This document shows positions 32,235 to 51,200 of a DNA stretch of 64,000 bases, piece after piece. Numbering within the stretch: the stretch's first letter is position 1; each line of letters starts with the position of its first letter. Origin of the DNA: Verrucomicrobiales bacterium. GTDB lineage: Bacteria > Verrucomicrobiota > Verrucomicrobiia > Limisphaerales > UBA11320. The notes below the pieces were generated by a model. That model ran no database searches, was not told where the DNA came from, and saw only the letters and a list, made by a program, of their open reading frames with translations. Made by a program: the position numbers and the translations under genes. Location of the stretch: the NCBI GenBank assembly GCA_016793885.1, contig JAEUHE010000197.1, positions 62,001 through 126,000 of the forward strand. The letters are read 5' to 3'.

Positions 32235-35006
32235 TTAGGACCGTGACCGAGGCAACTTATGCCTCGTGATGATGCCGTCCTGATCGAGAAGCGCGAACTC
32301 TCCGCGCGAGCCGAGGGGCAGGGCTGCGATGATCGTTCGGTCCGCGGTCGTCCAGTGCATGAGCTGGGTTCCGCCTTCGGCGTCGACGCGCAACACGCGT
32401 CCCTCCTCCCCCGCGTGAATCAGTACGAGTCCGCGGCCGAGCAGAGCCACCAAAGGCTTTGGCGTGGCTTCGTCCAGTGCGCCGCAGGTCAGCGGCGGGC
32501 CGGGAGAATGGTAAAAGACTCCCTGATCGAGAGCTGCGATGATGGTGGGCTTGACCGTGGACTCGTCCAGGAGCAAGCGATGGACTTTGCTGGGCAACTC
32601 GTGGCCTTCCCAGGTGCCTCGGTGGCTGAGGATCAGCAAGCGGTTGCCGAGGCTGACTGCCGCCACATTCTTACCCGCCGCCAGGCACGCTCCGAGGGAT
32701 GCACTGGGGACGTCGCTGGCCAGGAGAGGTTCGCTGATGTCCCAGCTTCTGATCAGTGTGCCGTCAAACTGATGGTGGAACACGGTGGCCGAGGAACGAG
32801 CGAGTTCCAGGCTCCAGACTCCTTCGGAGGTGCAGCATACCGGGTGACCTCGGGATCCCAACCATCCCGGGGTCAAGAGTTCCGCTGCTTCCGGGAAATC
32901 TGGGGAAGCGACTGGAAAACGGATCGGCCCGCTGGTTTGGCCCTGGGGCAGTCGGAAGAGGACTTCGCTTCCGTCGGGCGGGATTGGCTCGAAGAGGAGT
33001 CCGGTGGTGTCTCGCTTTGGTGATGCGGCCACCTCAAGCGTTTGTACCAACCCGCTCCAGGACGCCCGGATCATCACCCAGTGCATCCCTTTGGCGCCGA
33101 GCCCGTAGAATCCTGAACCGGCTGGCTTGAAACTCAGCCATCGGACCCCGCTCGGGAGCACCAGGTTTTCCGCGCCCGCCTTCCCCGTGGTTCCGGTCGG
33201 GCCGCTCTGAGTATCCTCCTGATGGGAGCCGGATTTGCTGCCGAGGTTGGCTGGATGCCTTCGGCAGTTGACATAGTGGTTGGCATCCCGGCAGAGGAGC
33301 CGGTCACCAGGTGTCAATTCGCAGAGATAACTGGCGAGCCGTGAAAGGGTGCGCAGCGGCAATCGCGGTTCCTGCAGGCGTCGGGATATGGCGATATGGC
33401 AGAGATTGGCGGTCGCCTTGCGCACCTGGGGATCCGGGTGTCGTCGCGCCTGTTGGATGAGGATTTCGAGAAAGCCATCCTGTTTCCAGAAAGCCCCGCG
33501 AGCCTGCTCTATCCTCCCAAGAAACCCGATGGTCTCTCCATGATGGCCGCGTCTCGACCACAGTTCGAGCAGGGCGTGCAGGCAGGGTATGGACTGCGGG
33601 GAGTCGGGCCAGCCAACTTGCAGCTCCGTTGCGGCCTCTTCCGGCAAGTCCAGCTTTTCGTCCAGCAAGCGGGCTGCTTCGAGGTGATCTTCGGCCAAGC
33701 GGTGGTCTGCCACCATCGTGATCCAAATCTTCCTCGCCGCGGCGATATCCCCGCGTTTCTCATGGACCCTGGCGGCATCCGCCTTGGCGTCGATCCGCTC
33801 GTAGAGTTCCAGAGCTTCCGGCAAGAGTTCCCCTTCCTCGAGGCAATGGGCTGCTGCCATCGTGTTCTGCATGCGCTCTTCATAGAGCACAGCCGCTTCC
33901 CGGAAGTGCTTTCCTTGCTTCAAGGCATCGGCAGCCGATGCCAAATCCCCCAGCAGATGGGCGAAAATGTAGGCGGCACGACGAAAATTCCGCAGGGAGA
34001 GTTCTCGGTTGGCCAGTTCACAGTAGGCTCGTCTGAGTCTGGCCTGCAGATCTGCGGGAGCTTCCCAAAAGTCGGCTGGCTCTCCTCCCAGCCGCTGAGG
34101 GTCAAAGTCGGGATTTCTGGTTCCGAGACGGGATCCCGGCTTCGCGCGGCCGCGATGCGGCAGGTGGGTGAGCGGGATGGCGTGTCGGAGTCCCGACTCC
34201 GGATCGCGCTCCAGTTGGTTCAGCAAACGGTGCAACTCCAGGTCGCGTTCCTTCCGCAGGTTCTGGCTTTCCTCGCCGAATCGGCGCGTTGCCCACTGAG
34301 TCAACGGATTGACCCACTCCTTCGCGACTGATTCCTGCGGTAACTGAGAAGCTACCCCTTGAATGCTTTGGGCTATCATGTCCTTCAACTGATCGGTGAA
34401 GGATCGCCCATCGGCTCGGAGTTCTTCCGGGCCGGGAGGAAGCTCGTGGGCCGGCCGTGTGCCAATCAAGTCGACCGCATCACCGAACAGATCCTGCAGT
34501 CGCGGTGGCGACTGCAGCGTGATGTGCGTGAGGTCGGAGTGCAGTCGAACGCCGAGTCGAGCGCCGCTCCATTCAGCGGCCTGGGCATCGGGGCTCACCA
34601 GCAGATCCCAAACGTGAAGCGGCTTCGTGTGGGCGAAACGGCTTGCTCCAAGCGTTGGATGGAGGAACACGAGATCGTCGCCGCAGAGCGCATCGGCCTC
34701 GGCTGGAGCCAGGGGAGGATATAGCTCAGCGTCGGCTGGAACACACAGTCTCTTGCCGAGCCAGGAACACGCGAATCCCGAAGGTAGGGCCTGGGGCCTT
34801 TTCCCTGGGGCGGGAATGATGAGCACGCCGGCGGCCCCGGGGTCCGATGCCGAGGAGGGCACCACATGGAGCAGGGTGTCGGCCTCCGCCAAGCCGCATC
34901 TAGCGAGCTCGGCGAGCCACCGTTCTGTCTGAGAACCGGGAAGGAACCAAGCCTCCGCCGAGCGCAGGGTTCTTTCCGACATTCTCAGTTCAAGCTCGAC
35001 GTTCAC
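32235..35006 (-). CDS. MoxR-vWA-bpX system protein: bpX domain, TPR-like repeats and C-terminal beta-propeller
   Basis: About 923 aa from a GTG at 35006 whose GTGA overlaps the stop of the vWA gene; ATG 34982 is an alternative. The N-terminal about 200 residues look like a bpX-type domain (SAEAWFLPGSQTERWLAELA). The middle (about 260-560) has LRHAIPLTHLPHRGRAKPGS and ANRELSLRNFRRAAYIFAHL followed by TPR-like helical repeats (AADALKQGKHFREAAVLYEE, AAHCLEEGELLPEALELYER), which I associate with the bpX0/bpX1 families. The C-terminal about 330 residues are repeats of short beta-strands, consistent with a beta-propeller. No signal peptide, so cytoplasmic. Family assignment is from memory of the pattern. 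Probably a scaffold or target-recognition subunit; that role is inference. Confidence 0.78.
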   Translation of the reverse strand: MNVELELRMSERTLRSAEAWFLPGSQTERWLAELARCGLAEADTLLHVVPSSASDPGAAGVLIIPAPGKRPQALPSGFACSWLGKRLCVPADAELYPPLAPAEADALCGDDLVFLHPTLGASRFAHTKPLHVWDLLVSPDAQAAEWSGARLGVRLHSDLTHITLQSPPRLQDLFGDAVDLIGTRPAHELPPGPEELRADGRSFTDQLKDMIAQSIQGVASQLPQESVAKEWVNPLTQWATRRFGEESQNLRKERDLELHRLLNQLERDPESGLRHAIPLTHLPHRGRAKPGSRLGTRNPDFDPQRLGGEPADFWEAPADLQARLRRAYCELANRELSLRNFRRAAYIFAHLLGDLASAADALKQGKHFREAAVLYEERMQNTMAAAHCLEEGELLPEALELYERIDAKADAARVHEKRGDIAAARKIWITMVADHRLAEDHLEAARLLDEKLDLPEEAATELQVGWPDSPQSIPCLHALLELWSRRGHHGETIGFLGRIEQARGAFWKQDGFLEILIQQARRHPDPQVRKATANLCHIAISRRLQEPRLPLRTLSRLASYLCELTPGDRLLCRDANHYVNCRRHPANLGSKSGSHQEDTQSGPTGTTGKAGAENLVLPSGVRWLSFKPAGSGFYGLGAKGMHWVMIRASWSGLVQTLEVAASPKRDTTGLLFEPIPPDGSEVLFRLPQGQTSGPIRFPVASPDFPEAAELLTPGWLGSRGHPVCCTSEGVWSLELARSSATVFHHQFDGTLIRSWDISEPLLASDVPSASLGACLAAGKNVAAVSLGNRLLILSHRGTWEGHELPSKVHRLLLDESTVKPTIIAALDQGVFYHSPGPPLTCGALDEATPKPLVALLGRGLVLIHAGEEGRVLRVDAEGGTQLMHWTTADRTIIAALPLGSRGEFALLDQDGIITRHKLPRSRS

Positions 35007-37729
35007 AGGTGGTGGAGAAAGTCCTGAACGCAGCGATAGACCCGCAGCGCGTCCGAGTTCTGTCCTGGTCGAAGAAAGAAATCGCTTCCGCAGACGATTT
35101 GGTCGGAGTTCCATCCAGCCACTTCCGATTCGCTGAGCACGAGGGAGATTTCCGGAATCCTTGGGTTTCCGCTCTTCAGATGGAGCAGTCCGCGATGGTC
35201 CAGGAACGCTCGGCTGCCGCCTGGCCAGAGTGCGCTTTCCAGGCCCTGTCCCGCCTTGGCGAGGCCGGCGATGGAGACCGGGTTGAACCCTAGGAACGGG
35301 GCCGAGGCATCGCTGGGAGATGTCTCAGCGAACCGGAGCCTTCCCCCCGCGTCTAATTCCAAGATCCGCTCGGTTCCTTTGCGGCTGCGGATGCGCAACC
35401 CGTCGGACAGGGAACCCGATACGGCCTCGATGTTCTTCAGAAGATTCCATTGGGGCAATGGAGGTGCGGGATCCAAGGCTTCCAGATCGTCCAGTGGAGC
35501 CCGCATGATCTCCCCTTTGCCGGTGGTGAGATCGAACAAGCTGTGCCAGTTCAAGTCGGGGATGGTCAGGTACACTCGATGTCCATCCCGGGACACATGG
35601 ACATTGCGGCGATGCGACGACTGACCGATGGGCAGGGGAATTTGGAACCGTTCTCCGCTGGCGAGGGAAATAATCTGACAGAGCTGGTTCAGCACCCAGG
35701 GACCTTCACAGCCTTCGCGATCAAAGATGGTCACCACGCTCGAAACGCCTATCGAGGAGGGAAAGGAAACCGGCTCGAATCGCACCCTCCCGCCGTCCCA
35801 GCTGACGAAGTGAAACTTTTGGAGCGAGGAGAAGAATCTGCCGCGATGCCATCGGCTGGGACTGGGAGATCGGTCCAAGGGCTGGCCATCCCGCAGCGAG
35901 TAAGCGCAAACGTCTCCTTCTCGAATCACCAGAAGCGCATTGCCGGATCGGCAGGCCGCCACGGTGGAGAGTCCGGTGCCCAACTCCGTCACCTGAGGCG
36001 GACCGCTCGGTTCGAGGCGGAGCAGACGGCAAGGCCTCTGGGGGCTGCCCGCCTTGAGCAGGCAAACCGTGGCATCGATGCTTTCGAGCCACAGGGTTTT
36101 CCCGGGTGGAACTTTCTGGATGAGCAAGTCGCCACCCTGCTCCCGGTCCTGGTATCTGACCAAGCGACGGTCGCTCATGACTGCGAGATACGAGCCCGTG
36201 GATTCGCGGGTCCAGTGGCTTACTTTGCCGCACAGCGGCAGTCGCAGCGGGGCTGGCGTCTGCTGGATGAAGGCAGGCAGCTCGGGGTTGGCCTGCGCGC
36301 GTCCAGCCTGGGTGGTTGCTCCCGAGTTTGGGAACAGGCGATCCACGTCCAGTTGAGATTCGCACATGGCCTGGCGGGGGAGAAACGGCGGCGCATGGAG
36401 TGCAAAACGGCCATCGCGGCTCACCGTCGCGACAAACGCGAGATTTCCCCCATGGCGCTCCAGCAGGGTTCGAAAAGTCGGGTCGCCGAGGGTGTCTTGC
36501 TGGGTGATCAGAACCGACTGGAGCGGGGGTTGATGCTCACGGATCACCTGCTGAAAGCTGCGCAGCGAGCCCCCGGGATGAATATCAGGCTCGAGGACTT
36601 CCAGATGAGCCAGCAGTCCCCCTTCATGCAGTAGATCGACGGAGGTGATTCCTTTTCGGCCGGCTCGCCACACACGAACCGCCCGGGTATGGGACCCATT
36701 GGCTACCATCGCAAGCGCTGCCGCCGTGGCAAAAACCCGAGGCAAGCCCCACATGCGCAGGCCGCAATCCAGAAGCACAGCGAGATCCGACGCCGGTTCG
36801 TGCTCGGGAGGATCCCGTCGCAGGAACAGCGCTTCATTCAGAGCGATCCGAGTGGTGAGCGTGAGATCATCATGGGCAAGCTCGCTCAGCAGCAGGCGAT
36901 CGAGCGGACCTCGATTGCTCAGATCGGAGACCCCTCCGACGGCTGAGTCGTCGTGTTCCCACAGGCGGTGAGGCAGACGAATGGCAGCCCTGAGTTCCTG
37001 TGCCGCGCGGGCCAGCATCTGCTGGTCCGGATCCTGGAGCAGTTTGGCCAATAGCTGCCGGGCCGCTTCGGACGGAGGCAGGCCTGGATCTAGGGGCTGA
37101 GGCAGTTCGTCCAGTCCGGTCCGCAGCCTGAGGCGCAAGGAGGCCTCAGTTTGACGCCGGATTCCTTTGGCGACCCAGTGGATGTCCTTGAGGAGGTTGC
37201 CCTCGGGGATCTCTTCTGAGTTTCCGTTGAGGTCGTCGGAAGTCAGATCGAGGGACAGCAGATCCTCAGGATCGATGCCATCGGCGCCGAGGTGCGGATC
37301 GTGGTCCTCGAACACCGCGTCCGCGAGCAGGCATTTAGAGCGGAGCGGTTTGATCAACTCGCGCGGCAGTGAGGCGAGGCGACGTAATTCGCCGAGATCC
37401 TCCTTGATCTGGGTTTCGCGACGGATTCGGGAGGCTTGCCGGAGTTGCGCTTTCGCTCCCTCGGTCTGGTCCAGGTTAGTTGGTGACTCGCCGAGCACGT
37501 GGACGACCTGTGGGATGAGTCCTTGGCAGGCGGCCAGTAGAAGAACCACGCCCTCAAACGGAGGCAGGCCGCGAGGGGCGAGGCCCTCCAGGATTTCGAC
37601 CACCTCCTCGCGAAACGCGATCGTGCTGCCATCATGCCAGGCAAGAACCGTGCCGTCATCCTCCCAATGCCAGAGGGATTCCAGGCTGGGTCGAACGTAA
37701 TCCAGAAGCTGAGATCGGGCATCGATCAT
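35003..37729 (-). CDS. MoxR-vWA-bpX system protein: vWA domain with degenerate MIDAS plus beta-propeller
   Basis: 908 aa from an ATG at 37729 that overlaps the preceding stop (ATGA). The N-terminal about 300 residues are helical and charged. A vWA-like domain covers about 315-450, with strand LAVLLDCGLRMWGLPRVFAT where the metal-site DxSxS is replaced by Asp321-Cys-Gly-Leu-Arg, and later LQSVLITQQD and GNLAFVATVSRDG strands. The preceding LDRLLLSELAHDDLTLTTRI segment is typical of this group as I know it. From about 470 to the end, repeated WxxD-like strand patterns (for example RDGHRVYLTIPDLNWHSLFD) suggest a beta-propeller. A vWA partner of MoxR ATPases usually acts as substrate adaptor. 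A longer frame upstream to 37942 lies inside the previous gene and is discounted. Confidence 0.8.
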   Translation of the reverse strand: MIDARSQLLDYVRPSLESLWHWEDDGTVLAWHDGSTIAFREEVVEILEGLAPRGLPPFEGVVLLLAACQGLIPQVVHVLGESPTNLDQTEGAKAQLRQASRIRRETQIKEDLGELRRLASLPRELIKPLRSKCLLADAVFEDHDPHLGADGIDPEDLLSLDLTSDDLNGNSEEIPEGNLLKDIHWVAKGIRRQTEASLRLRLRTGLDELPQPLDPGLPPSEAARQLLAKLLQDPDQQMLARAAQELRAAIRLPHRLWEHDDSAVGGVSDLSNRGPLDRLLLSELAHDDLTLTTRIALNEALFLRRDPPEHEPASDLAVLLDCGLRMWGLPRVFATAAALAMVANGSHTRAVRVWRAGRKGITSVDLLHEGGLLAHLEVLEPDIHPGGSLRSFQQVIREHQPPLQSVLITQQDTLGDPTFRTLLERHGGNLAFVATVSRDGRFALHAPPFLPRQAMCESQLDVDRLFPNSGATTQAGRAQANPELPAFIQQTPAPLRLPLCGKVSHWTRESTGSYLAVMSDRRLVRYQDREQGGDLLIQKVPPGKTLWLESIDATVCLLKAGSPQRPCRLLRLEPSGPPQVTELGTGLSTVAACRSGNALLVIREGDVCAYSLRDGQPLDRSPSPSRWHRGRFFSSLQKFHFVSWDGGRVRFEPVSFPSSIGVSSVVTIFDREGCEGPWVLNQLCQIISLASGERFQIPLPIGQSSHRRNVHVSRDGHRVYLTIPDLNWHSLFDLTTGKGEIMRAPLDDLEALDPAPPLPQWNLLKNIEAVSGSLSDGLRIRSRKGTERILELDAGGRLRFAETSPSDASAPFLGFNPVSIAGLAKAGQGLESALWPGGSRAFLDHRGLLHLKSGNPRIPEISLVLSESEVAGWNSDQIVCGSDFFLRPGQNSDALRVYRCVQDFLHHL

Positions 37730-38451
37730 GGCGCTATCTGTCGATCCCGGCAGGATGCACGGACGTTGCTTCGGTTGGCGGGGACGAACTGTTCCGACTG
37801 GATCCATTGTGCCTGGCCGTCGGGATGCCAGAGCACCAGACGGTGCGGGCTGGTGCCCCACACGCGAGCCAGGCTCGTCGCGCTGATATGGGGGTGCCAG
37901 ACAAAGCCCAGCGGAATTCCGACACCTTCGACCTCCGTCCATCGCTGACCTGGTAGCGGGGGCAGCGGGGTGCCACGGATCAGAGCCTGCCCGCGGTCGT
38001 TGATGGCGAAGCTAAGTCGGGAAAGCCGCAGCTCGCAGGCAGTGAGGGCGTAGGCATCCCAGTCGCTCACGTTGGCCAGGAGGAGGTGGCTGGGAGATTC
38101 GATCGAGCAGCGCTTCAGCGAGAGAGAGACAGGGTTAGGAGTTTGACTTGCTGACGTGGTGGGAGGGAGTTTGGGCACCAACCAGTCGGCGATGTTTATC
38201 CAGGGTCGGAGGGGGAGATTTTCAGACGGGATTCGCCGTCCCGTCTCCAACAAAAGATCTTCCTCCAACCAAAGGTATCGGGCCTCCACGGGAAGGCCGC
38301 GAATGGCCATATCCAAGGCTTCATCCAGATGCCTGGCCCGGGCCCACACGGTGGCATCGGCCACGCACACTTCGACGCCCGGCACCAATCGTAGCGAGGC
38401 AAGCGCCCCGGCGTTCTCGAGCGCCAGGCGGATGGCCCACGCCGCGTTCAT
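37726..38451 (-). CDS. MoxR-vWA-bpX system small subunit, bpX2-like
   Basis: 241 aa from an ATG at 38451 overlapping the MoxR stop (ATGA). Its recognisable segments are RLVPGVEVCVADATVWARAR, LDEALDMAIRGLPVEARYL, PSENLPLRPWINIADWLVP and GTPLPPLPGQRW, which fit my recollection of the bpX2 family; there is no catalytic motif visible. It is soluble, with no signal or membrane segment. Its position between MoxR and the vWA protein, with 4-nt overlaps on both sides, implies equal expression and a shared complex. Confidence 0.72.
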   Translation of the reverse strand: MNAAWAIRLALENAGALASLRLVPGVEVCVADATVWARARHLDEALDMAIRGLPVEARYLWLEEDLLLETGRRIPSENLPLRPWINIADWLVPKLPPTTSASQTPNPVSLSLKRCSIESPSHLLLANVSDWDAYALTACELRLSRLSFAINDRGQALIRGTPLPPLPGQRWTEVEGVGIPLGFVWHPHISATSLARVWGTSPHRLVLWHPDGQAQWIQSEQFVPANRSNVRASCRDRQIAP

Positions 38452-39599
38452 GCAGCCTGAGGCCGGGTCTTGACCCGAGACCAGAGTTCCGTGGTGAGTT
38501 GCTGAAGCCACTCGCGTTTTCCGGAATCCTGAACCCATTGACATCGACCTTCGAGAATCCCCAGACGGTCCTGGATGTAGGAAAGTTCAGAGTCCGGAAG
38601 GGTGGGGGATTGAAGCTGGTCGCTCAGGGCTTCGAGATCGCGCGCGAGCGCTTCAGGATCAGGTCCGTCACTGGGGTGGGATCGGTGATGGTCTCCTTGA
38701 GCTGCTTCCTCCTTGCCCAGGGTTTGGCTGACCAGGCTGCTCAGGATTTCCTGCTGTTCGAGAGTGTCCCAGATATGCCGGGCGACCCACAGGTCACTGA
38801 CTCGCGCGGTGACCCGGCTGCACAGGAGGGCGCTCGCTGCAATCGCCCGCTGCAGCTTCACCGCGCGCCGATCGCTGACGCTGATTCCAGCATGGCGGAT
38901 GCGCTGGATCAGTTCGGCGAAGGGCTGTCGGATCTTTGACAGATCTACCTCAAGAATGGCGGGTTGCAGGGACTTAAGGTCTTCGAAGCGCAACGATGAT
39001 CGGACCGGGTGATGGGCGGCAAGCCGCCAGCCCGCTTCGAGAACATCCGGCAAGCGCTCTCCGGGAACGTTATCAGAAGTGACCCGGAGCAGAAAGCGAT
39101 CGAAGAGCGCTTTGAGAGCATCGTCCTCCGGCAGTTGGTTGCTGGCTCCGACAAAGAGAAGCGTCGCCAGGGCCCGGCTCTCTTTCCCTCGGCGAAAAAC
39201 CCGTTCGTTCAGCGCCACCAACAGTGAGTTCAGAATGGCGCTGTTGGCATTGAGCAGCTCGTCGAGGAACACAAAGGACGCCTCCGGCAGCATCCCTTCG
39301 GTGTTGGTCACCAGTTCTCCTTCCCGCAGGCGGCGAATATCGAAAGGCCCGAAAAGTTCGTTGGGCTCGGTGAAACGGGTCAGGAGGTAGTCGAACGACC
39401 GACCTTCTAGGCGTGCAGCCAAGTTATTGACCAGGGCGCTTTTCGCAGTTCCGGGCGGCCCCAGGATGAACAAGTTTTCCCCTGCCATCAGGCTAATCCC
39501 CAGCAGGTCAATAACTTCACCTTTGCCGACGAAGTCCTTCTTCATCGGCTCCAGGACCTCGGAAACCAGTCTGCTGGCCAACTCGGGTGCGTTTATCAT
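38448..39599 (-). CDS. MoxR-family AAA+ ATPase
   Basis: 383 aa. Walker A GPPGTAKS (47-54), Walker B FVFLDE (109-114), sensor 1 Asn154 in GASNQLPEDDALKALFDRF, which also supplies the candidate arginine finger. LFGPFDIRRLREGEL and TEGMLPEASFVFLDELLNAN are characteristic of the MoxR/RavA group. An acidic, likely disordered stretch (about 300-335, DHHRSHPSDGPDPEALARD) precedes a helical C-terminus. An AGGA Shine-Dalgarno precedes the ATG. MoxR ATPases remodel proteins together with vWA partners. First gene of the four-gene coupled operon, 65 nt after the HAD gene on the same strand. Confidence 0.92.
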   Translation of the reverse strand: MINAPELASRLVSEVLEPMKKDFVGKGEVIDLLGISLMAGENLFILGPPGTAKSALVNNLAARLEGRSFDYLLTRFTEPNELFGPFDIRRLREGELVTNTEGMLPEASFVFLDELLNANSAILNSLLVALNERVFRRGKESRALATLLFVGASNQLPEDDALKALFDRFLLRVTSDNVPGERLPDVLEAGWRLAAHHPVRSSLRFEDLKSLQPAILEVDLSKIRQPFAELIQRIRHAGISVSDRRAVKLQRAIAASALLCSRVTARVSDLWVARHIWDTLEQQEILSSLVSQTLGKEEAAQGDHHRSHPSDGPDPEALARDLEALSDQLQSPTLPDSELSYIQDRLGILEGRCQWVQDSGKREWLQQLTTELWSRVKTRPQAA

Positions 39600-40764: not shown

Positions 40765-43700
40765 ATGAAGTGTCATTCGTTGTGGTTTTCCGTCGTTCTC
40801 GCTCTCAGCGTCCTGCCTGTTCGTGCCGAACTGATCATCTCCGAGTTTCTGGCCAGCAACCTGCGCAATCTCGCCGACGAGGATGGTGCCTTTGAGGATT
40901 GGATCGAGATCCGAAATACCTCCGAAGCCGCTTTGGATCTACGGGGCTGGTTTCTGACGGATTCAGCGAACGATAAAGTTAAGTGGCAGTTTCCGGCGAC
41001 CAACCTGAACGCGGGCGCCAGCCTGATCGTCTTTGCATCGGGCAAGGACCGTCGCGTTCCAGGGCTGCCGCTCCATACCAATTTCAAACTGTCACCCGAG
41101 GGTGAGTATCTCGCCCTGGTCAAACCTGACCGCCTGACGACCACGACGGTTTTCGCGCCGGTTTATCCGCCCCAGTTCGCGGACGTTTCGTATGGGTTTG
41201 GCCTCGTGACGACAAATGTGCCGCTGGTGGTCAACTCAGGCGGTGCCCGACTGTTTATCCCGACGGTCGCCAATGGGGGCGATCTGTTGGGCGAGTCTTG
41301 GAAAGGTGGGGCGGAGCCGTTCCTGGCTGATGGCTGGACGCCGGTCGATGGCGGGGCGGGTTACTCGGGTGCAGATGTCAGCCTGGTCTCCCAAGGCGCA
41401 CTCGCCCTGCGGCTCAATTTTGACGCAGCTCCCGTGAGCAATGTGCTCTTGGACACCAAGCCGGCCGGGACTCCCCGCAATGGCGTCAACCGGGGAGCCG
41501 ACTGGATCGCCGTTTCTAACGATAGTTCTCAGAACCCGGTCGCCCGCAGCGGCGCAATGGGTTTTGTGGCGGCCAACTCGGACCAGGTGACGGTGGCTGC
41601 GAACGCTGATTTCAACCTGGCCCAGGGCACGCTCTCGATGTGGGTGCGCTCCTCTGGTCCTGCGGGCGTGGGGACGGAAGCGGCGGTGTTGTTCGAGCGT
41701 CGAACTACCGCCGCGGGCCTGCAGCTCCTGCTTCTGGACGACGGGCGGCTGCGCGTGATCGCGAACTCTGCGGCGGGTGCGGTTCGTAACACGATCACCA
41801 CCTCTGCTAGTGTCGGTGACAAACGATGGCATCACGTCGCCGTGACCTTCGAACAGGCGGCGGCGGGGAGCATCTCGATTTCAATCGATGGCCAGCCGGC
41901 AGGCTCAAGCCTCAATACCGGGGCCTGGGCGTGGCCTACGACGACGTCCCTTGCGTTCGGTAAATCCCAGGAAGCGGCCTCCACCTGGCGTCGGTTCAAC
42001 GGGGCTCTGGATGACATCCGCCTCTACAACACCGTGCTCAGCAGCGAGCAGTTAGCCCAGATTTATTCGGGTGATGGCGGGGTGGCCCCAGCCGACTACG
42101 CCGTAGACCTGACTGCTCCGCTCCGCGGGACCTCCAGTTCCGTTTTCGCGCGTTTCCCCTTCGTGGTCGGAGATCCCAGTGTCATCAGCTCGCTGTTGCT
42201 TCGGGTGAAGTATGATGACGGCTACGCCGTCTGGCTCAATGGGAGGCCCCTGGGCCGTTCAAACGTCCCGGATCCGCTGAACTGGGATTCACAAGCGACG
42301 GCCGAGCATTCCAGTGCCTTCTCGGAAACCTTAGTCCAAGCGGTCACGCCCGGGCTGCTTCGTTCGGGTACCAATATCCTGGCGTTCCAGGGAGCCAACC
42401 TTTCCGCTGGCGATCCCACCTTTCTGCTCAGCGCAGAATTGACCGGATTCGCCATTCTGGACGCTAGTTCCACCCCGCAATATTTCACCCGTCCCACACC
42501 GGCGGAGGCGAACGGAGTGGGGGCGAAGGTTACTGGACCGACCATCACTGAGGTGGGGCACAGTCCCAAGGTTCCCCGCGACGACGAGGATCTTTGGGTG
42601 ACCTCGCGCATCAGCCCCTCCTTCAACAATCTCTCGAATGTGGTGATGCGCTACCGCGTGATGTTCACCAACGAAGTTGTCGTTCCCATGAAGGACGATG
42701 GGAGGAGCCATGATGGATTGGCCAATGATGGAGTCTTCGGGGCTGTCATCCCGGCGTCCGCGTCTACCAACGGTCAAATGGTCAGGTATCTGATTAGTGC
42801 CGAGGACGTGGCCGGCAACGTATCGCGGTGGCCGCTGTTTCATGATCCAACCGGGTCTGAGGAGTACCTCGGAACCGTAGTGAATCCCAGCTCGGTCAGC
42901 AGTCCGCTGCCGGTATTCCATTTGTTTGTCTCCGCCGCCAATCTTCCAAAGATGGACGACGAGGCTACCGGGGGGCGGGTCACCGTCTTCCATGAAGGGG
43001 AGCTTTACGACAATGTCCACATGGAGCTGCGAGGTAACACCAGCGCCGGCCTGCCGAAGAAATCGCATCGGGTGGAGTTTCATCGGGAGAAATGGCTTCT
43101 GCATGAAGGGCCTGGAGGGAGGGTCCGCAAGACTTCGTTCATCGCGGAGCATCTGGATCCCACCTACATGCGGCAGGGACTGAGCTTTTGGCTGTTGAAT
43201 GAAAGCGGCACCCCGGCCCCGTTCTACTACCCGGTTCGAATTCAACGAAATGGCGAGTTCTATCAGTTGGCGTCCCATACCGATGTGTTGGGTGAGGATC
43301 AGCTTGAGCGCATGGGGTATGATCCCCGCGGGGCCCTGTACAAGGCGGCGGGTAACATTGATCCTAGCCAGTCCAGCACCGGCGGATTCGAGAAAAAGAC
43401 GCGCACCTTCGAAGGTGTGGCGGACTACCAGGCCCTGGCGGCGGCCATCAATGAGTCGCGTCCATTGGCCACGCGTCGCACAAATGTCTTTGAGTTTTTA
43501 GATGTGCCCAATGTGATCAATTATCTCGCCTGCGCGCGCTGGGTGCAGGAGGGCGATGATGTTTGGGCGAACATGAGCATTTATCGCGATTCGGAAGGGG
43601 ACAAGCTGTGGCGGATCATCCCGTTTGACATGAATCTCTCCTGGGGTGCCCTGTACTATGGTGACGCCCCGGATCGTAATTTCGGAGTCATCTCCACTGA

Positions 43701-46700
43701 CGATGGCAATAAGAGCCATCCACTTTACGGTGGATCGGCGGTTCGGGCGGTTGGCGGCAGCTACAACCAGATCTACGACATCATCATCCAGGTTCCTGAG
43801 ACCCGCCAGATGCTGCTTCGTCGGATGCGTAGCATCATGGATGAATGGATCCAGCCCCCGGCGACCCATCCGCTCGCCAAGAAATTCGAACAGCGCATCA
43901 CTTGGCTCACCAATCAAATGTGGACGGATGCCTTCATCGACCGTGCCAAGTGGAAGTGGCCTGATTTGAGCGGACCTTACAGTCTGGGACCCAACCAGTG
44001 GTTGACCAACGCCACGCAGGAGTTGGTGGAAAAGTTTATCGAGCCGCGTCGCTACCACTGGTTTGTAACCCACGCTGCGACCAACGTAGCTCGCCCGATC
44101 GGCGTGGCCAACAATCGGAACGCGGGTATCCCGGAGTCCCAGTCGGACGACCTGGTGTTGAAATTCGGGGCGGTCGAGTTCAACCCCTCTAGCGGCAATC
44201 AGGCGGAGGAGTTTATCACGCTTACCAATCCGAATCCTGTGGCGGTGGATCTTTCTGGCTGGACGCTCAGCGGAGGCATTGAATTTGTTTTTAAGGGCGG
44301 AACCGTGATGCCCTCCAACAGCCTGCTTTACGTGTCGCCAGACATCGCCGCCTTCCGCAATCGGACCGTTGGTCCCCGTGCTGGTTTAGGCGTCTTCGTC
44401 GTGGGGCCCTATCGTGGACAAATCTCCGCTCGAGGCGAGCCGGTGGCGCTGATGGATCGGAGCGGGCGGGTGGTAGCGACTGTGAACTCCCCGGCCCAGC
44501 CCACCATGGCCCAGCAGTTTTTGCGCGTCACTGAGATCATGTTTCATCCTACCGGCGCAGCGGAAGGCAGTCCATACACCGAACGGGATTTTGAGTTCGT
44601 CGAGTTAAGGAACACGGGCGACCAGACGCTGGACTTGGGGGGCATTCATTTTACGAATGGCTTGGCTTTCGAGTTCACCGGCAGCGCCGTGACCTCCCTG
44701 GGTGCGGGGGAGCGCGTCCTGGTGGTCAAGAATAGAACGGCCTTTCTGACCCGTTATCCCACGGCAACTCGCATCGCGGGCGAGTATGCGGGCACCCTGG
44801 ACAACAGTGGGGAACGGCTGACTTTGCACGACGGCGTCGGTGAGGTGGTGCTCGATTTTGCCTACAGCCGCACTTGGTATCCCGTCACCGACGGCGCCGG
44901 TTTCTCACTGGTGTTTCGCGACGATCGATTGTCGCACTCTGCCTGGGATACCAACTCCAATTGGCGTGCGAGCAGCTTCGATCAAGGATCTCCGGGCGTT
45001 GCCGAACCGGCCTCGATCGAGGTCTCTCCGGTTTTGGTGAACGAGATCCTGAGCAATCCCTTGGTCGCCAATGGCGACGCTGTCGAGTTGGTCAACACCA
45101 ACTCCGTGGCAGTGGACATTTCCGGCTGGTATCTGTCGGATGATTTTCTGACCCCCCGGAAGTACCTCATTCCCGCGAATACAGTGGTGCCGGCGAACAG
45201 CGTCGTGCGCATCCCGGAAACCGCCTTCAACTCGAGCCCTGGATCGGCCTCAAGCTTCGCTTTGGGTAGCTCGGGCGATGGCATCTATCTCTTCTCGGCC
45301 GACTCGAGTCGCCGGCTGACCGGCTTTGCGCACGGTACGGAATTTGGTCCCTCCCTGCGCGGCATCACTTTCGGCCGGCACCTGAACAGCGTTGGCATCG
45401 AATCGTTCCCCCCGCAGCTGACCAACACGCTCGGGACTCTCAACGCCGGTCCGGCGGTTGGGCCCGTGATCATCTCCGAATTCCTCTACAATGCCCCACC
45501 GCTTCCTGCTGGGGTGCAGGATTACAATCGGCAGTTCGTGGCGCTCCGAAATGTCAGTCCGAGCGCGGTTCCCCTGTTTGACCCGGCGGCGCGCACGAAT
45601 ACGTGGAGAATTCGGGGAGATGTCGATTTTGACTTTCCGACGAATGTGACTCTCACCGTCGGCGAGCAGGTGGTCGTGGTGGGTTTCGACCCCGCGGTCG
45701 ATCTCGGATCCGCACAGGCTTTCCGGGCTGATTTCCAAGTTCCCGTTGCAGTGCGGTTGTTCGGTCCGTTCCGCGGCGACTTGGGTAACGGTAGCGGGAT
45801 CGTTCGTGTGGGGCGTCCCAACCCGCCGACAGCAGAGGGGATTTTTTTCCCGGTCGTGGATGAGGTCGCCTATGATGATCAGCTGCCTTGGTCACCGGCC
45901 GCGGACGGTTGGGGTGGGTCCTTGCATCGGCGGGAACCGGCCGCGTACGCCAACGATCCGGCCAGCTGGGTTGCCGCATCGCCATCACCCGGAAGATTGG
46001 TCACGAGCGCCAGCGAGCCCCAGATCGTGTCCCAGCCCCGGTCGGAGCAGGTGCTCGCCCTTCAACCGGTGCGGTTTGAGGTATCCGCGATCGGTTCTGA
46101 TCTCACCTACCAGTGGTTCCTCAACGGCGATTCCATTGACGGAGCTCGCGCCTCTGTTCTCGAGCTGGCCGCGGTGCTGCCCGGCGATGAAGGAAACTAT
46201 CAAGTCGCGGTGGTTGGCTCTGGGGGGGCAGTGATGAGCGAACCGGCGTTGCTGCAGGTCTCTCTGCCCCTCGCTTTTGCGGTTCAGCCGAAGTCCCGAT
46301 TCGTAACTGCAGGCACCAATGTGACCTTTTCCGCGCCGGCAGTGGGTGTGGGCGAAGTGCGCTATCAATGGCGTCGTAACGGTCAGCCAATTTCTGGGGC
46401 AACCGGCTACGATTTAAGCCTGACGGCGGTTCAGCCGGCGTTGTCAGGAGTTTATGACGTTTTGGCCAGTGACGATCTTGGATCCATTGTGAGTCAGCCT
46501 GCCCAGTTGGTGGTCTCCGTGAAACCGGCCTTTGTCTTTCAGCCCCAGGCCCGAACGGTGCTTCAAGGGGAGACGGTGACGCTGTTTACCACGGTTTCGG
46601 GGACGACTCCCTTGTGGTATCGCTGGTCTCGAGCGGCGAGGACGATCACGAATCAGTTCAGCCTGAACAACTACGGATTGTTGGTGATTACCAACATTCA

Positions 46701-47172
46701 GACCAGCAATGCCGGACCTTATACGGTGACAGTGACTAACCTGGCGGGCGCAACCGCGGCCAGTCCTGGCATCACGTTGATCGTGCTAGCCGACGTCGAT
46801 CAGGATGGGATGTCGGACGCTTGGGAGGCGTTGCATGGATTCAGTAGCCAGACCGCCCAGGATGCGTCTATGGATGCCGATGGCGATGGCGTTTCGAACC
46901 GCGATGAATACGTTGCGGGAACAGATCCGCGCAGCAGCGCCAGCCGGCTAAGGCTCAGCGTGGAGCTGCAGTCCCCGGGGGTAGTGATCCGATTCAACGC
47001 GATCTCCAATCAAACCTTCAGCGTGCTCTATCGCACCAACCTGGACGCATCCGCTTGGCTCAAGTTGGTCGATGTGCCATCCCGATCCACGAATCGTCTG
47101 GTGGAGGTGCGCGAGACCAATGCGGCACCGGATTTGCGACTCTACCAGGTCCTAGCGCCAGCTCAGCCCTAG
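40765..47172 (+). CDS. Giant secreted CotH-kinase / lamin-tail / LamG / Ig-like protein
   Basis: 2135 aa. Signal peptide (1-22, ending PVRA). Modules with approximate residues: lamin-tail 23-130; LamG/concanavalin-like 265-450; a YDDGYAVWLNG-type domain 460-580; FN3-like 600-710; CotH kinase-like 715-1040; four more lamin-tail domains starting near 1130, 1253, 1424 and 1566; three Ig-like domains 1750-2005; a calcium-binding TSP3-like DVDQDGMSDAWE / DADGDGVSNRDEYVAGTDP segment about 2010-2060; and a small beta-rich C-terminus. In CotH, ELRGNTSAGLPKKSHRVEF carries the kinase-loop Lys, and DDVWANMSIYRDSEGDKLWR with PFDMNLSWG carries the metal ligands. No membrane anchor or sorting tail is visible. 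Shares its architecture with the paralogue at 48265. Confidence 0.92.
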   Translation: MKCHSLWFSVVLALSVLPVRAELIISEFLASNLRNLADEDGAFEDWIEIRNTSEAALDLRGWFLTDSANDKVKWQFPATNLNAGASLIVFASGKDRRVPGLPLHTNFKLSPEGEYLALVKPDRLTTTTVFAPVYPPQFADVSYGFGLVTTNVPLVVNSGGARLFIPTVANGGDLLGESWKGGAEPFLADGWTPVDGGAGYSGADVSLVSQGALALRLNFDAAPVSNVLLDTKPAGTPRNGVNRGADWIAVSNDSSQNPVARSGAMGFVAANSDQVTVAANADFNLAQGTLSMWVRSSGPAGVGTEAAVLFERRTTAAGLQLLLLDDGRLRVIANSAAGAVRNTITTSASVGDKRWHHVAVTFEQAAAGSISISIDGQPAGSSLNTGAWAWPTTTSLAFGKSQEAASTWRRFNGALDDIRLYNTVLSSEQLAQIYSGDGGVAPADYAVDLTAPLRGTSSSVFARFPFVVGDPSVISSLLLRVKYDDGYAVWLNGRPLGRSNVPDPLNWDSQATAEHSSAFSETLVQAVTPGLLRSGTNILAFQGANLSAGDPTFLLSAELTGFAILDASSTPQYFTRPTPAEANGVGAKVTGPTITEVGHSPKVPRDDEDLWVTSRISPSFNNLSNVVMRYRVMFTNEVVVPMKDDGRSHDGLANDGVFGAVIPASASTNGQMVRYLISAEDVAGNVSRWPLFHDPTGSEEYLGTVVNPSSVSSPLPVFHLFVSAANLPKMDDEATGGRVTVFHEGELYDNVHMELRGNTSAGLPKKSHRVEFHREKWLLHEGPGGRVRKTSFIAEHLDPTYMRQGLSFWLLNESGTPAPFYYPVRIQRNGEFYQLASHTDVLGEDQLERMGYDPRGALYKAAGNIDPSQSSTGGFEKKTRTFEGVADYQALAAAINESRPLATRRTNVFEFLDVPNVINYLACARWVQEGDDVWANMSIYRDSEGDKLWRIIPFDMNLSWGALYYGDAPDRNFGVISTDDGNKSHPLYGGSAVRAVGGSYNQIYDIIIQVPETRQMLLRRMRSIMDEWIQPPATHPLAKKFEQRITWLTNQMWTDAFIDRAKWKWPDLSGPYSLGPNQWLTNATQELVEKFIEPRRYHWFVTHAATNVARPIGVANNRNAGIPESQSDDLVLKFGAVEFNPSSGNQAEEFITLTNPNPVAVDLSGWTLSGGIEFVFKGGTVMPSNSLLYVSPDIAAFRNRTVGPRAGLGVFVVGPYRGQISARGEPVALMDRSGRVVATVNSPAQPTMAQQFLRVTEIMFHPTGAAEGSPYTERDFEFVELRNTGDQTLDLGGIHFTNGLAFEFTGSAVTSLGAGERVLVVKNRTAFLTRYPTATRIAGEYAGTLDNSGERLTLHDGVGEVVLDFAYSRTWYPVTDGAGFSLVFRDDRLSHSAWDTNSNWRASSFDQGSPGVAEPASIEVSPVLVNEILSNPLVANGDAVELVNTNSVAVDISGWYLSDDFLTPRKYLIPANTVVPANSVVRIPETAFNSSPGSASSFALGSSGDGIYLFSADSSRRLTGFAHGTEFGPSLRGITFGRHLNSVGIESFPPQLTNTLGTLNAGPAVGPVIISEFLYNAPPLPAGVQDYNRQFVALRNVSPSAVPLFDPAARTNTWRIRGDVDFDFPTNVTLTVGEQVVVVGFDPAVDLGSAQAFRADFQVPVAVRLFGPFRGDLGNGSGIVRVGRPNPPTAEGIFFPVVDEVAYDDQLPWSPAADGWGGSLHRREPAAYANDPASWVAASPSPGRLVTSASEPQIVSQPRSEQVLALQPVRFEVSAIGSDLTYQWFLNGDSIDGARASVLELAAVLPGDEGNYQVAVVGSGGAVMSEPALLQVSLPLAFAVQPKSRFVTAGTNVTFSAPAVGVGEVRYQWRRNGQPISGATGYDLSLTAVQPALSGVYDVLASDDLGSIVSQPAQLVVSVKPAFVFQPQARTVLQGETVTLFTTVSGTTPLWYRWSRAARTITNQFSLNNYGLLVITNIQTSNAGPYTVTVTNLAGATAASPGITLIVLADVDQDGMSDAWEALHGFSSQTAQDASMDADGDGVSNRDEYVAGTDPRSSASRLRLSVELQSPGVVIRFNAISNQTFSVLYRTNLDASAWLKLVDVPSRSTNRLVEVRETNAAPDLRLYQVLAPAQP

Positions 47173-47330
47173 CGCGTCCTAGTAGGGGGTGATTAAACCC
47201 GGGTGAAGGCAGCCTAGATCCCCCTCCGGGGGCGGGGAAGCTGTACAGGGCTCTCCTCGTTTCCCACAAAAGTGAGAACTAAGCAGGTTGTCGGAGATCC
47301 TCACTTCTTGGGGTGAGTTCCTTTTGGAGT

Positions 47331-47352
47331 GCTGTAGGCCTCTACAGCTTTT
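47331..47352 (+). terminator. Hairpin with T-run downstream of CotH gene
   Basis: GCTGTAG/CTACAGC 7-bp stem with GCCT loop, followed by TTTTC. It lies about 160 nt after the CotH stop, so it is a plausible but weak terminator. Confidence 0.4.
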
Positions 47353-47446
47353 CAAGACCAGACGCAGTCGGGTATCCCCCGGCAAGACAAACGGATCTCA
47401 CCCACTTTTGATCACACCCGCCCTAGTAGGCCATCGAATTCCAGGC

Positions 47447-47474
47447 TTGCATTGACTTGTTTCCGCACTATTTT
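47447..47474 (+). promoter_or_regulatory. Candidate efp promoter
   Basis: TTGCAT (47447-47452), 16-nt spacer, TATTTT (47469-47474); predicted start about 40 nt before the efp ATG. Confidence 0.4.
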
Positions 47475-47522
47475 AGTTGGCTCTTGCTCCTCGGATCGAG
47501 GTGCAAACATCTATCGAATTTT

Positions 47523-48083
47523 ATGGCAACAGCGAACGATCTGCGTAAGGGAATGGCAATTAGTTACAACGGTGACGTTTCCGTCGTGTTGGACAGCCAG
47601 CATCGCACACCCGGAAATCTCCGCGCCTTTGTGCAGGCAACCCTGCGGAGCATCCGCACTGGCAAATCTGCCGACGTGCGTTTCAGCTCGACTGAAAAGA
47701 TCGAAGTCATCCCGATGATGACCAAGAAGATGGAGTTTAGCTACCTTGACAATGGCGATTACGTCTTCTCAGACCCGGAGACGTTTGAGACCGTGACCAT
47801 CACTCCGGAGATCGTCGGGGACGCCAAGAATTACCTGATTGAGAACGCCTCTGTGACGATGACATTGGTGGAGGACAAGGCGGTCTCCATCGAATTGCCG
47901 CCCAGCGTGGTGCTGAAGGTGACCGATGCCCCCGAGGGCATCAAAGGTGATTCAGCCAACAACGTGATGAAAACCATCACCGTTGAGACTGGCGTCACCG
48001 TTCAAGCCCCCTTGTTCATCAAGCAGGGCGAGAAGATCAAGATTGATACCCGGACCGGTAAATACATGGAGCGGGCCAACTGA
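47523..48083 (+). CDS. efp: Elongation factor P
   Basis: 187 aa from ATG 47523 (MATANDLRKGMAISYNG); upstream in-frame codons give unlikely residues. Three domains: KOW-like (1-63), OB 2 (about 64-126) and OB 3 with IKGDSANNVMKTITVETGV and KIDTRTGKY near the end. Relieves ribosome stalling at consecutive prolines. The loop that contacts the CCA end reads TPGNLRAF (29-36), so Asn32 replaces the modifiable Lys34 of E. coli and Arg34 lies two residues on. EpmA-type lysylation is therefore excluded; any other modification is unknown. Some features (MEFSYLDNGDYVF) recall the EfpL/YeiP paralogue, but overall it reads as EF-P. A strong terminator follows, and giant CotH genes flank it. Confidence 0.92.
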   Translation: MATANDLRKGMAISYNGDVSVVLDSQHRTPGNLRAFVQATLRSIRTGKSADVRFSSTEKIEVIPMMTKKMEFSYLDNGDYVFSDPETFETVTITPEIVGDAKNYLIENASVTMTLVEDKAVSIELPPSVVLKVTDAPEGIKGDSANNVMKTITVETGVTVQAPLFIKQGEKIKIDTRTGKYMERAN

Positions 48084-48114
48084 GCTGACCCCGCGGGGTG
48101 GACCTGATTTTGCT

Positions 48115-48158
48115 GAAGCGGCGTGAGCGAGAGAATCGCTCCGCCGCTTCTTCGTTTT
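48115..48158 (+). terminator. Intrinsic terminator after efp
   Basis: 15-bp stem GAAGCGGCG(T)GAGCGA / TCGCTCCGCCGCTTC with one bulged T, 5-nt loop, then TTCGTTTT. Confidence 0.85.
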
Positions 48159-48202
48159 ATGGGCTGGGCGTGGGCCCGGGTGCACGATTCCACGGTTCCT
48201 CA

Positions 48203-48231
48203 TTGATCCCGGCTAAACGTAACGCTAAAGT
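48203..48231 (+). promoter_or_regulatory. Candidate promoter for second CotH gene
   Basis: TTGATC (48203-48208), 17-nt spacer, TAAAGT (48226-48231); predicted start about 27 nt before the ATG at 48265. No clear Shine-Dalgarno follows. Confidence 0.4.
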
Positions 48232-48264
48232 AACCACTTAGTCTGGAAACCTCAGAATTTTGTT

Positions 48265-51200
48265 ATGCGTTGTGCTCTTGCTGTTCTTCTCTTCTGTTCG
48301 GTCTGGTGTCCCGTCGTCACCTCCGCCGATCCCCTGGTGATCTCCGAGTTCATGGCGAGCAACCAGACTGGGCTCAAAGATGAGGACGGGGAGTTTAGCG
48401 ATTGGATCGAGCTTCAGAACATCACCACCAACGCAGTAAACACCGCGGGGTGGTCTCTGTCGGACTCCGCCGGTAACCTGCGCAAGTGGCTGCTCCCCGC
48501 CACCAACATTCCGCCCCGCGGCTTTTTGGTGGTTTTTGCTTCCTCAAAGAACCGCGCACTCCCCGGGAGGCCGTTGCACACCAACTTCAAGCTGGATGCC
48601 GGAGCCCCGGGGGAGTTCCTCGGCTTGGTGAAGCCGGATGGCCTCACGGTTGCTTCCCAATACTCCCCCGCCTATCCCGCCCAGTTTCCGGATGTGAGTT
48701 ATGGGTTGGCACCGAGTGTGATCACCCTTCCCTTGATCCCCGCCGGGGCAACCGCCAAGGTTCGGGTGCCCGCCAACGAGGCCGAAGGCTTGGCCTGGAC
48801 CACTCGTGGATTTGATGACGCCAGCTGGACTTCTGGAACCGCTGCTTTCGGATACGACACCGGTGTTCCGGACTCCGCGGAGGATTCCGCTGCCAGCTTC
48901 GTTTTGGCGTCGGACCCTCTGGCATTTTTCCGACTCAACGAGAGCGCGGGGTCTTCCGCCCGTAACGACGGAAATCTGGGCGCAGCCGCCAACGGCCTCT
49001 ACTCCGGGACTGCGGCTCCCGGGGCGGCCGGCCCGCGCGGTCCTTCGTTCAGTGGCTTCGAGGCTTCCAATATGGCGTTTCGTCCGGGAAGTGCGGGCAA
49101 TTTGCGCATCCCGGCCAACCCAGCTTTCAACTTCGGAACCGGGCCGTTCACGGTCGAGATGTGGTTCCTGACCACCAACCCAACTCCGCGCGGCGACCTC
49201 TTTACGTACAAGGGCGCCGGCGGGGATTTTGGAATTCAGCTGTCCGCGCAGGCGGCGCGACGGATCAGCGTGTTCCACAACACGTACCTCGGAAACGGCG
49301 GAACGGTCGCGACCAATCAGTGGCAGCATCTGGTGGTGACCCGCGACAGCTCCCGAGCCCTGCGTGGATTCTTGAACGGGGTTCGCATCATCAACGCGAC
49401 CCACAACGGCGACCTCAGCTTTGGAACGGACCTGATCTTTGGCAGTAATCACAGCGGCGACCCCGGATCGCCTACTACGACCTTCAACGGCCTGATGGAC
49501 GAGATTGCGATCTATGGACGGGCCTTTTCCACCAACGAAGTCCTGGCTCACTACCAGGGCGCTCAGACTTTTGTTCCCGTTTCGTTCGCCTCCCAGATCA
49601 CGACTGACCTGCGCAGCCAACTATTCGGTGTCAATGCCTCCGCTTATTTTCGGTTCCCTTTCACGGCCGCGGACGTGGGTGGGATAGATCGTTTGAAGCT
49701 GCGCGTGCGTTACGACGACGGCTTCGTCGCCTATCTGAATGGTGTGGAAGTGGCGAGCGCCAACGCGCCCATCAGCAACATCTGGAATTCTGCCGCAACC
49801 GATCGGCATGCGGATTCGTTGGCGCTTCAATTGGAGGAATTCGATCTGAACAGTGTTCGCGGCTTGTTGGTGGAAGGGGTCAACGTTCTAGCTATCCAGG
49901 GGTTGAACGTGGCTGCCGACAACTCGGATTTCTTTCTGCAGCCTCAATTGGAGGCCACCGAAATCGGCGACCTTTCGCAGCAGGCTCGGTATTTCCCAGT
50001 ACCCAGCCCCGGAGCGGCGAACAGCAGCGCCGCAGCTGAGCTCGGCCCGGTCATCAGCAGTCCGTCGCATCGACCGCTTCAACCTCGCAACGAGGAAGAC
50101 CTGGTGGTGACGGCTCGCATCTCACCGGTCGGCACCGCCCTCGGTCCGATACTTCTGAGCTATCGCGTCATGTATGGCGTCACCAACACACTGCCCATGC
50201 TGGATGATGGTTTGCACGGTGATGGCGCGGCGGGCGATGGCGTCTTTGGCGCAACAATCCCAGCCGCCGCGTCTACGAACGGTCAGATGGTTCGCTGGTT
50301 TATTTCGGCATCGGATCTCGCGGGACGCGCCTCCCGCTGGCCTCTCTTCGATGACCCGACCGGCTCGCCAGAGTATTTGGGCACGGTGGTCTTCAACACG
50401 GGGATCACCAGTACCATTCCGACTTGGGAGTGGTTTACCCCGAATGAAACCGGATCCCGGAGCCGCAACGGCGCCCGCGGGTCGCTCTTCTACCAAGGCC
50501 GCTTCTACGACAATGTGTTCATTCGGGAGCGTGGCGGCGCGACCACCTTGGGGTCGCAGAAGTTTGATTTCAACCGTGGGGACGAATTTCAGCTGGATGA
50601 GAGCTATGGGGGGATTCGCGAGGCGAACCTGAACTCCAATGGAAGCGATCCCAGCTTCATTCGTCCGCTGCTGGCCTTCGAGACTTTTCGTCGGGTGGGC
50701 GTGCCTGCCTGCCTTTCCTTCAATGTGCTGATGCGGGTGAACAACAAGCAGGACCGGGTGGCGGTCTGGGTCGAGCAAGTCGATCAGCGGTTTTTGGAGC
50801 GGAACGGTTTGGATCCCGAAGGCGCCCTTTACAAGATGGTTCAGCGAGGAAGCCTGGATCCCGTCTTCAATGACTCCACCGATGGCGTGGAGAAGAAGAC
50901 CCGGCAGAACGAATCCAATGCCGACCTCCAGGCTTTGGTTACGGGGATTCGGTTGAACAAGACTGCTGATGAGCGGGCTCTCTACATTTTCGACAACCTG
51001 AATCTCCCCGCGATGGTCAACTTTCTCGCGGTTCGCAGCCTGATCATGGACGCGGACGATGTGCGCAAGAACTTCTACGTGTATCGCGACTCAAACGGCA
51101 CCAAGGAATGGTCCATTTTTCCGTGGGACAAGGATTGGTCCTTCGGGGTTGAAGGCGACGGAGGCCAGCACCTGCATCATCCGTTCTTTGGCGATCGCGC

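Follow-up and report, generated by a model that had tools for sequence, protein, structure and literature searches.

Four genes of a beta-propeller MoxR-vWA ternary system in a verrucomicrobial genome, with the fifth gene, bpX4, on another contig

Introduction

The genes considered here belong to a class that Kaur et al. 2020 (PMC7159879) described as the beta-propeller-containing MoxR-vWA ternary system. This class is represented in Pfam by bpMoxR and bpX0-bpX4, was called enigmatic by its own discoverers and was proposed by them to have a conflict role. A membrane-spanning segment in the variable N-terminal region of the third component is typical of the published systems (PMC7159879), though we do not treat it as defining, and additional linked genes were reported there for a subset. 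We found no experimental study of beta-propeller MoxR-vWA systems in the open literature under the family names. Here we analyse a member of this class encoded in a 64,000-nucleotide stretch, hereafter the window, of contig JAEUHE010000197.1 (positions 62,001 to 126,000 of the forward strand; assembly GCA_016793885.1) from a Verrucomicrobiales bacterium, in which four of the five parts form an operon and the fifth is encoded elsewhere in the genome.

Three further MoxR-vWA systems provide points of comparison. NorQ-NorD of P. denitrificans, which like the window system combines a MoxR ring with a vWA co-chaperone, is the best structural template for mechanism: a finger of the vWA partner enters the pore of the MoxR ATPase and the ring twists the linker (PMC13036017). 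NorD has an intact metal-ion-dependent adhesion site (MIDAS) and a known client, cNOR, whereas the window system has a degenerate MIDAS and no known client. The FtsH-type MoxR-vWA ternary system shares with the window system a divergent vWA domain and the same P-loop variant (PMC7159879), but no FtsH component or ubiquitin-like protein was found in the window operon. RavA-ViaA of E. coli likewise pairs a MoxR-clade ATPase with a vWA partner, and RavA is the closest match of the window bpMoxR among solved structures (1.2e-49). RavA-ViaA is not known to have propeller, TPR, bpX2 or bpX4 partners.

Results

Four overlapping genes of the beta-propeller system

Four open frames on the minus strand occupy positions 39599-32235 of the window in the order bpMoxR, bpX2, vWA protein and bpX3 protein, joined by three 4-nucleotide overlaps (ATGA, ATGA and GTGA), as a preliminary description made from the sequence had reported. 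The first gene (38448..39599; 383 residues) encodes the MoxR-clade AAA+ ATPase with intact Walker motifs recognised in that description: Walker A is GPPGTAKS, Walker B is VFLDE, the P-loop is intact and the protein matches PF20030 at 5e-94 (313.6 bits). GPPGTAKS is invariant across eight aligned relatives and agrees with the GxxxTAKS P-loop. The small protein of 241 residues, the ATG of which lies inside the bpMoxR stop, proved to be bpX2 (37726..38451; PF19918, 7.9e-52, 177 bits). The vWA protein (35003..37729; 908 residues) has the order bpX0-helical-vWA-propeller-bpX1, with bpX0 at residues 34-200 (37130..37630; PF19915, 8.2e-22) and bpX1 at residues 832-893 (35051..35236; PF19917, 3.1e-16). 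The fourth frame (32235..35006; 923 residues), with a GTG start overlapping the stop of the vWA gene, carries an N-terminal bpX3 domain at residues 4-176 (34479..34997; PF19919, 6.4e-35), TPR-like repeats at about residues 368-471 (33594..33905; profile match to IFT144/WDR19, 4.3e-9) and WD40-like C-terminal propeller blades at about residues 762-914 (32265..32723; profile matches to LST8, 1.7e-4, and Prp19, 2.3e-4), which agrees with the bpX/TPR/propeller architecture previously assigned to it. The Pfam scores of bpMoxR, bpX2, bpX0, bpX1 and bpX3 are far above cut-off and the assignment is therefore not due to chance; the Pfam comparison proposed in the preliminary description thus came out positive for all five, and the class named there, a MoxR-vWA-beta-propeller ternary system, is borne out by Pfam families, literature, profiles and structure.

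The window system resembles that of Kaur et al. (PMC7159879) in the bpMoxR P-loop, in the vWA protein with a C-terminal propeller, in the third protein with TPR repeats and propeller, in the lack of a conventional effector and in its occurrence in Verrucomicrobia and Planctomycetes. It differs in the unlinked bpX4, in the lack of a clear transmembrane segment and in a bpX3 N-terminus that is conserved in this clade. Scans for promoters and terminators at the locus returned no signal exceeding chance. Ordinary MoxR proteins pass the Pfam gathering cut-off of PF20030 (27 bits), which is lax, in 12 of 14 control genomes, including E. coli and B. subtilis, and about 300 bits sets the true members apart; annotation by PF20030 alone overcounts the beta-propeller system, and for this reason bpX2 and bpX4 were used in the system surveys. 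In genome G035, bpMoxR (L042:9129-10326) is read in two frames, owing either to a genuine frameshift or to a fault in the assembly.

bpX4 is encoded apart from the operon

Comparison of 88 loci, of which 80 came from scanning 84,980 species genomes and the others were those of the window and of related genomes (with a few genomes occurring under two identifiers), revealed a fifth gene directly upstream of bpMoxR and on the same strand in 76 loci, identified as bpX4 (PF19920) in all eight examples scanned. Carriers of the operon include Chitinophaga, for which a cultured host is available. At the window locus this position is occupied by a HAD-like (haloacid dehalogenase-like) gene. The operon, which had been described as complete, therefore lacks bpX4; the genome has this gene on a different contig (C53:31200-31811), 15 nucleotides behind gatB, and its product is 50% identical to that of a congener. 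We rejected the possibility that the split is an assembly artefact, as bpX4 is internal to its contig, flanked by gatB and a major facilitator superfamily gene, and the operon lies inside a 129-kb contig. The survey of neighbours suggested in the preliminary description thus yielded bpX4 as a recurrent neighbour; no gene outside the five recurs next to the operon in the loci surveyed. In the relatives, a 4-nucleotide overlap is the commonest spacing at each junction (33/73, 40/75, 23/68 and 31/58), counts that are biased upward because start codons were picked with a preference for this overlap.

The position of the operon varies within the genus. The four-gene block faces thrS in two of five genomes (G000 and G002), and in two others (G003 and G004) bpX4 is followed by the rest of the operon, the far end of which faces hflX, so that the whole stands between gatB and hflX; the core-genome neighbourhood beside thrS claimed previously is accordingly chromosomal, but not a conserved site. 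Of the four other genus members, three have bpX4 overlapping gatB by 4 nucleotides. Because adjacency of bpX4 and bpMoxR is common across phyla, the window arrangement is probably derived, the four-gene block having left gatB-bpX4, a direction that we infer. Overall, bpX4 stands directly behind gatB in four of the five genus genomes (L135:9195-11318, L137:675-2740, L037:3610-5696 and L038:16636-18800), and in another verrucomicrobial bin (L122) a gatB-like frame lies no more than 3 kb from bpX4-bpMoxR.

Among 293 genomes of the order, bpX2 was detected in 13 and bpX4 in 14, and all 13 bpX2 genomes carry bpX4 (hypergeometric 1e-21, a value that is too small, as it ignores relatedness; the positives span seven families of the order). 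The lone genome with bpX4 only is 75% complete and has the gene near a contig end. bpX4 resides on a separate contig in five of the 13 (G000, G001, G002, G035 and G437); in G491 the break falls between bpMoxR and bpX2, and contig ends preclude a judgement for G647. The other genus genomes without bpX4 in the operon also carry it elsewhere, as G000 does, and both bpX3 and bpX4 are present in each of six additional genomes that lack a part next to bpMoxR. Across genomes, the operon is broken at several different junctions. Since the parts are retained together whether linked or not, the system looks like an obligate five-protein set that tolerates dispersal. bpX2 and bpX4 appear to be obligate in this clade, unlike the additional genes of a subset in the published account. 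The gene order is interrupted in two other loci: at L086:11941-12900, bpX2 and the vWA gene are separated by an opposite-strand frame of 319 residues, and in L090 this junction is longer by about 1 kb and two frames also separate bpX4 from bpMoxR.

A degenerate metal site and a conserved segment in the vWA protein

The structure of the vWA protein was modelled (AlphaFold) from 60 homologues with a mean predicted local distance difference test (pLDDT) score of 88. None of the Pfam VWA models matches the protein, and the vWA identity of residues 311-470 (36320..36799) consequently rests on topology and the known family: in the model, the strands and helices of this alpha/beta region follow one another as in a vWA domain, and strand 1 ends with the invariant Asp321. 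In a fold search, the vWA domain was not among the matches listed, the list being filled by the propeller. The latter, at residues 497-758 (35456..36241) with more strands to about residue 870, aligns with the Elp1 propeller (VIA-align Z 12.4, root-mean-square deviation 4.8, 242 aligned residues) and with BamB (Foldseek 3e-8). In the predicted structure it looks like about seven or eight blades, compared with about four in the system of Kaur et al. The vWA-plus-propeller composition anticipated for this protein is supported by PF19915 and PF19917, by the strand-helix order and by the propeller matches.

Judging from the columns of 60 aligned sequences, the MIDAS (DxSxS...T...D) is degenerate: D321 is present in 60, G323 in 52, R325 in 54 and D412 in 34, such that Gly and Arg replace both Ser and the first Asp alone is invariant. 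As Gly and Arg stand where the two Ser are expected, metal-dependent ligand capture is doubtful. Just ahead of the vWA domain, residues 259-310 (36800..36955), only 52 in number, hold nine of the 14 invariant and 22 of the 57 invariant or near-invariant columns of the protein (p 4e-15 against an even spread) and form the worst-modelled part of an otherwise good model, with pLDDT mostly 40-61. Being the most conserved stretch, yet unplaced by the single-chain model, this segment is the best candidate for an ATPase-docking element, and bpMoxR is proposed as its partner because it is the best conserved of the partners.

bpX2 and the bpX3 protein

The model of bpX2 is confident (pLDDT 94.6), and a fold search with it returned no clear structural relative; a sequence search of solved proteins likewise found no relative of bpX2 or bpX4. 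A resemblance of bpX2 to MecA-like adaptors was considered but is not claimed, the best VIA match, to the C-terminal domain of YpbH of the MecA family (Z 6.1, root-mean-square deviation 3.2, 81 aligned residues), being below a meaningful level. A weak match to fvmX7 of the FtsH-type systems (5e-4, 19.6 bits) is under the Pfam cut-off of 24. The second half of bpX2 (37777-38136) aligns collinearly with the bpX3 N-terminus (34614-35006) with an hhalign probability of 28% (p 6.5e-4), hinting, as a lead only, at a shared domain. Conservation in bpX2 and in the N-terminus of bpX3 falls mostly on Trp, Gly and Pro, with some Arg, a pattern that does not look like an active site.

A hydropathy scan revealed no clear transmembrane segment, the 19-residue mean peaking at 2.0 in the vWA protein, within a helix of the modelled bpX0 domain, and at 1.2 in the bpX3 protein. 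The membrane-spanning segment expected in the N-terminal region of the third component was therefore not found in the bpX3 protein, although the Pfam bpX3 domain is present. In this clade, the bpX3 N-terminus is more conserved than the propeller and is not hypervariable.

Beyond the operon, positions 40765-54834 of the window encode two giant secreted-type proteins (2135 and 2189 residues) with lamin tail, CotH kinase, laminin-G and Ig domains, and these flank the elongation factor P gene (47457-48083).

Discussion

The reading that we lean towards, with rather more confidence than doubt, is that of a cytoplasmic machine of the beta-propeller MoxR-vWA type that remodels proteins at the expense of ATP and has four of its five parts encoded at this locus. 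This view draws on the likeness of bpMoxR to RavA, the joint retention of the parts, the conserved vWA segment, and searches that turned up neither an enzyme or defence family nor a clear transmembrane segment. The bpMoxR proteins would form a ring that hydrolyses ATP, and the vWA protein would serve as a co-chaperone docking on this ring mainly through residues 259-310. The propellers of the vWA and bpX3 proteins, together with the TPR repeats of the latter, may hold the complex together or bind a client. An adaptor role is envisaged for bpX2 and for bpX4, the latter supplied in trans from the gene behind gatB, and the work of the machine would be the remodelling of a client protein. A more specific version, which we put forward only tentatively, is an obligate intracellular machine of five proteins (bpX4, bpMoxR, bpX2, vWA and bpX3) unrelated to conflict, in which genes are scattered yet kept together and a vWA protein deficient in its metal site contacts the ATPase by way of a new conserved segment, the machine remodelling a lineage-specific client.

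Several observations weigh against the remodelling machine. There is no known client, and the neighbour survey offers no candidate from outside the five genes. Docking by residues 259-310 is suggested by conservation and a low-confidence stretch of the model, which make the segment a candidate element. Within the genus, mean identity is 87% for thrS, 83% for gatB and 75% for bpMoxR, falling to 48% for bpX4, 43% for the vWA protein, 40% for bpX2 and 38% for bpX3, of which the propeller is lowest (22-32%), so the motor is stable whereas its companions diverge rapidly. This divergence also fits a conflict role, as does rarity (13 of 293 genomes in the order and three of 388 sampled in the phylum). 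The fast-changing propeller, TPR and bpX parts may recognise something variable, and for that reason the conflict hypothesis stays alive.

As an anti-phage or programmed-death system, which we regard as a plausible but less likely alternative, the propellers and TPR repeats would sense an invader and the MoxR-vWA pair would set the threshold for releasing an effector that has escaped recognition. The kin VMAP, iSTAND and FtsH systems do have effector domains (PMC7159879), the non-ATPase subunits diverge quickly and the distribution is patchy. However, no informative match to an effector domain or defence family was found in Pfam, NCBIfam or PADLOC, searches that an undescribed effector could escape, the dispersed parts are all retained, and the bpX3 N-terminus is not hypervariable. 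Moreover, a quick bpMoxR tree groups by phylum with five label changes, the minimum possible (NCBI labels of bins may err), which favours descent within phyla, accompanied by loss, more than free exchange between them. bpX2 has no phage matches and one plasmid match, and a scan of viral contigs yielded one distant bpMoxR match only (35% identity). The plasmid match (NZ_CP115397.1:119135-119821, 31% identity) lies on a Hymenobacter yonginensis plasmid, and a large additional replicon can therefore host the system.

A factor dedicated to maturing a single enzyme or complex, acting in metal insertion or assembly like NorQD, CbbQO and RavA-ViaA, is unlikely: most characterised MoxR-vWA pairs act in this way and RavA is the nearest solved structure to bpMoxR, but no client gene recurs beside the operon and the NorD-type metal site is degenerate. 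That the operon is decaying towards a pseudogene cluster, having lost bpX4 and standing at a different site from that of two congeners, is highly improbable given its four open frames, intact overlaps and retained invariant residues, and the intact bpX4 elsewhere in the genome.

To the published system, this locus and its relatives add bpX4 and bpX2 that look obligate in the clade, retention of dispersed parts, an operon that lacks one part in cis, and a conserved segment that the model leaves unplaced. Retention of five parts when unlinked shows which genes to express together, and an operon-based clone of the window locus would miss bpX4. The conserved segment of the vWA protein offers a concrete interface for mutation, and dispersal, together with the phylum-wise tree, bears on whether this class belongs among mobile conflict systems.

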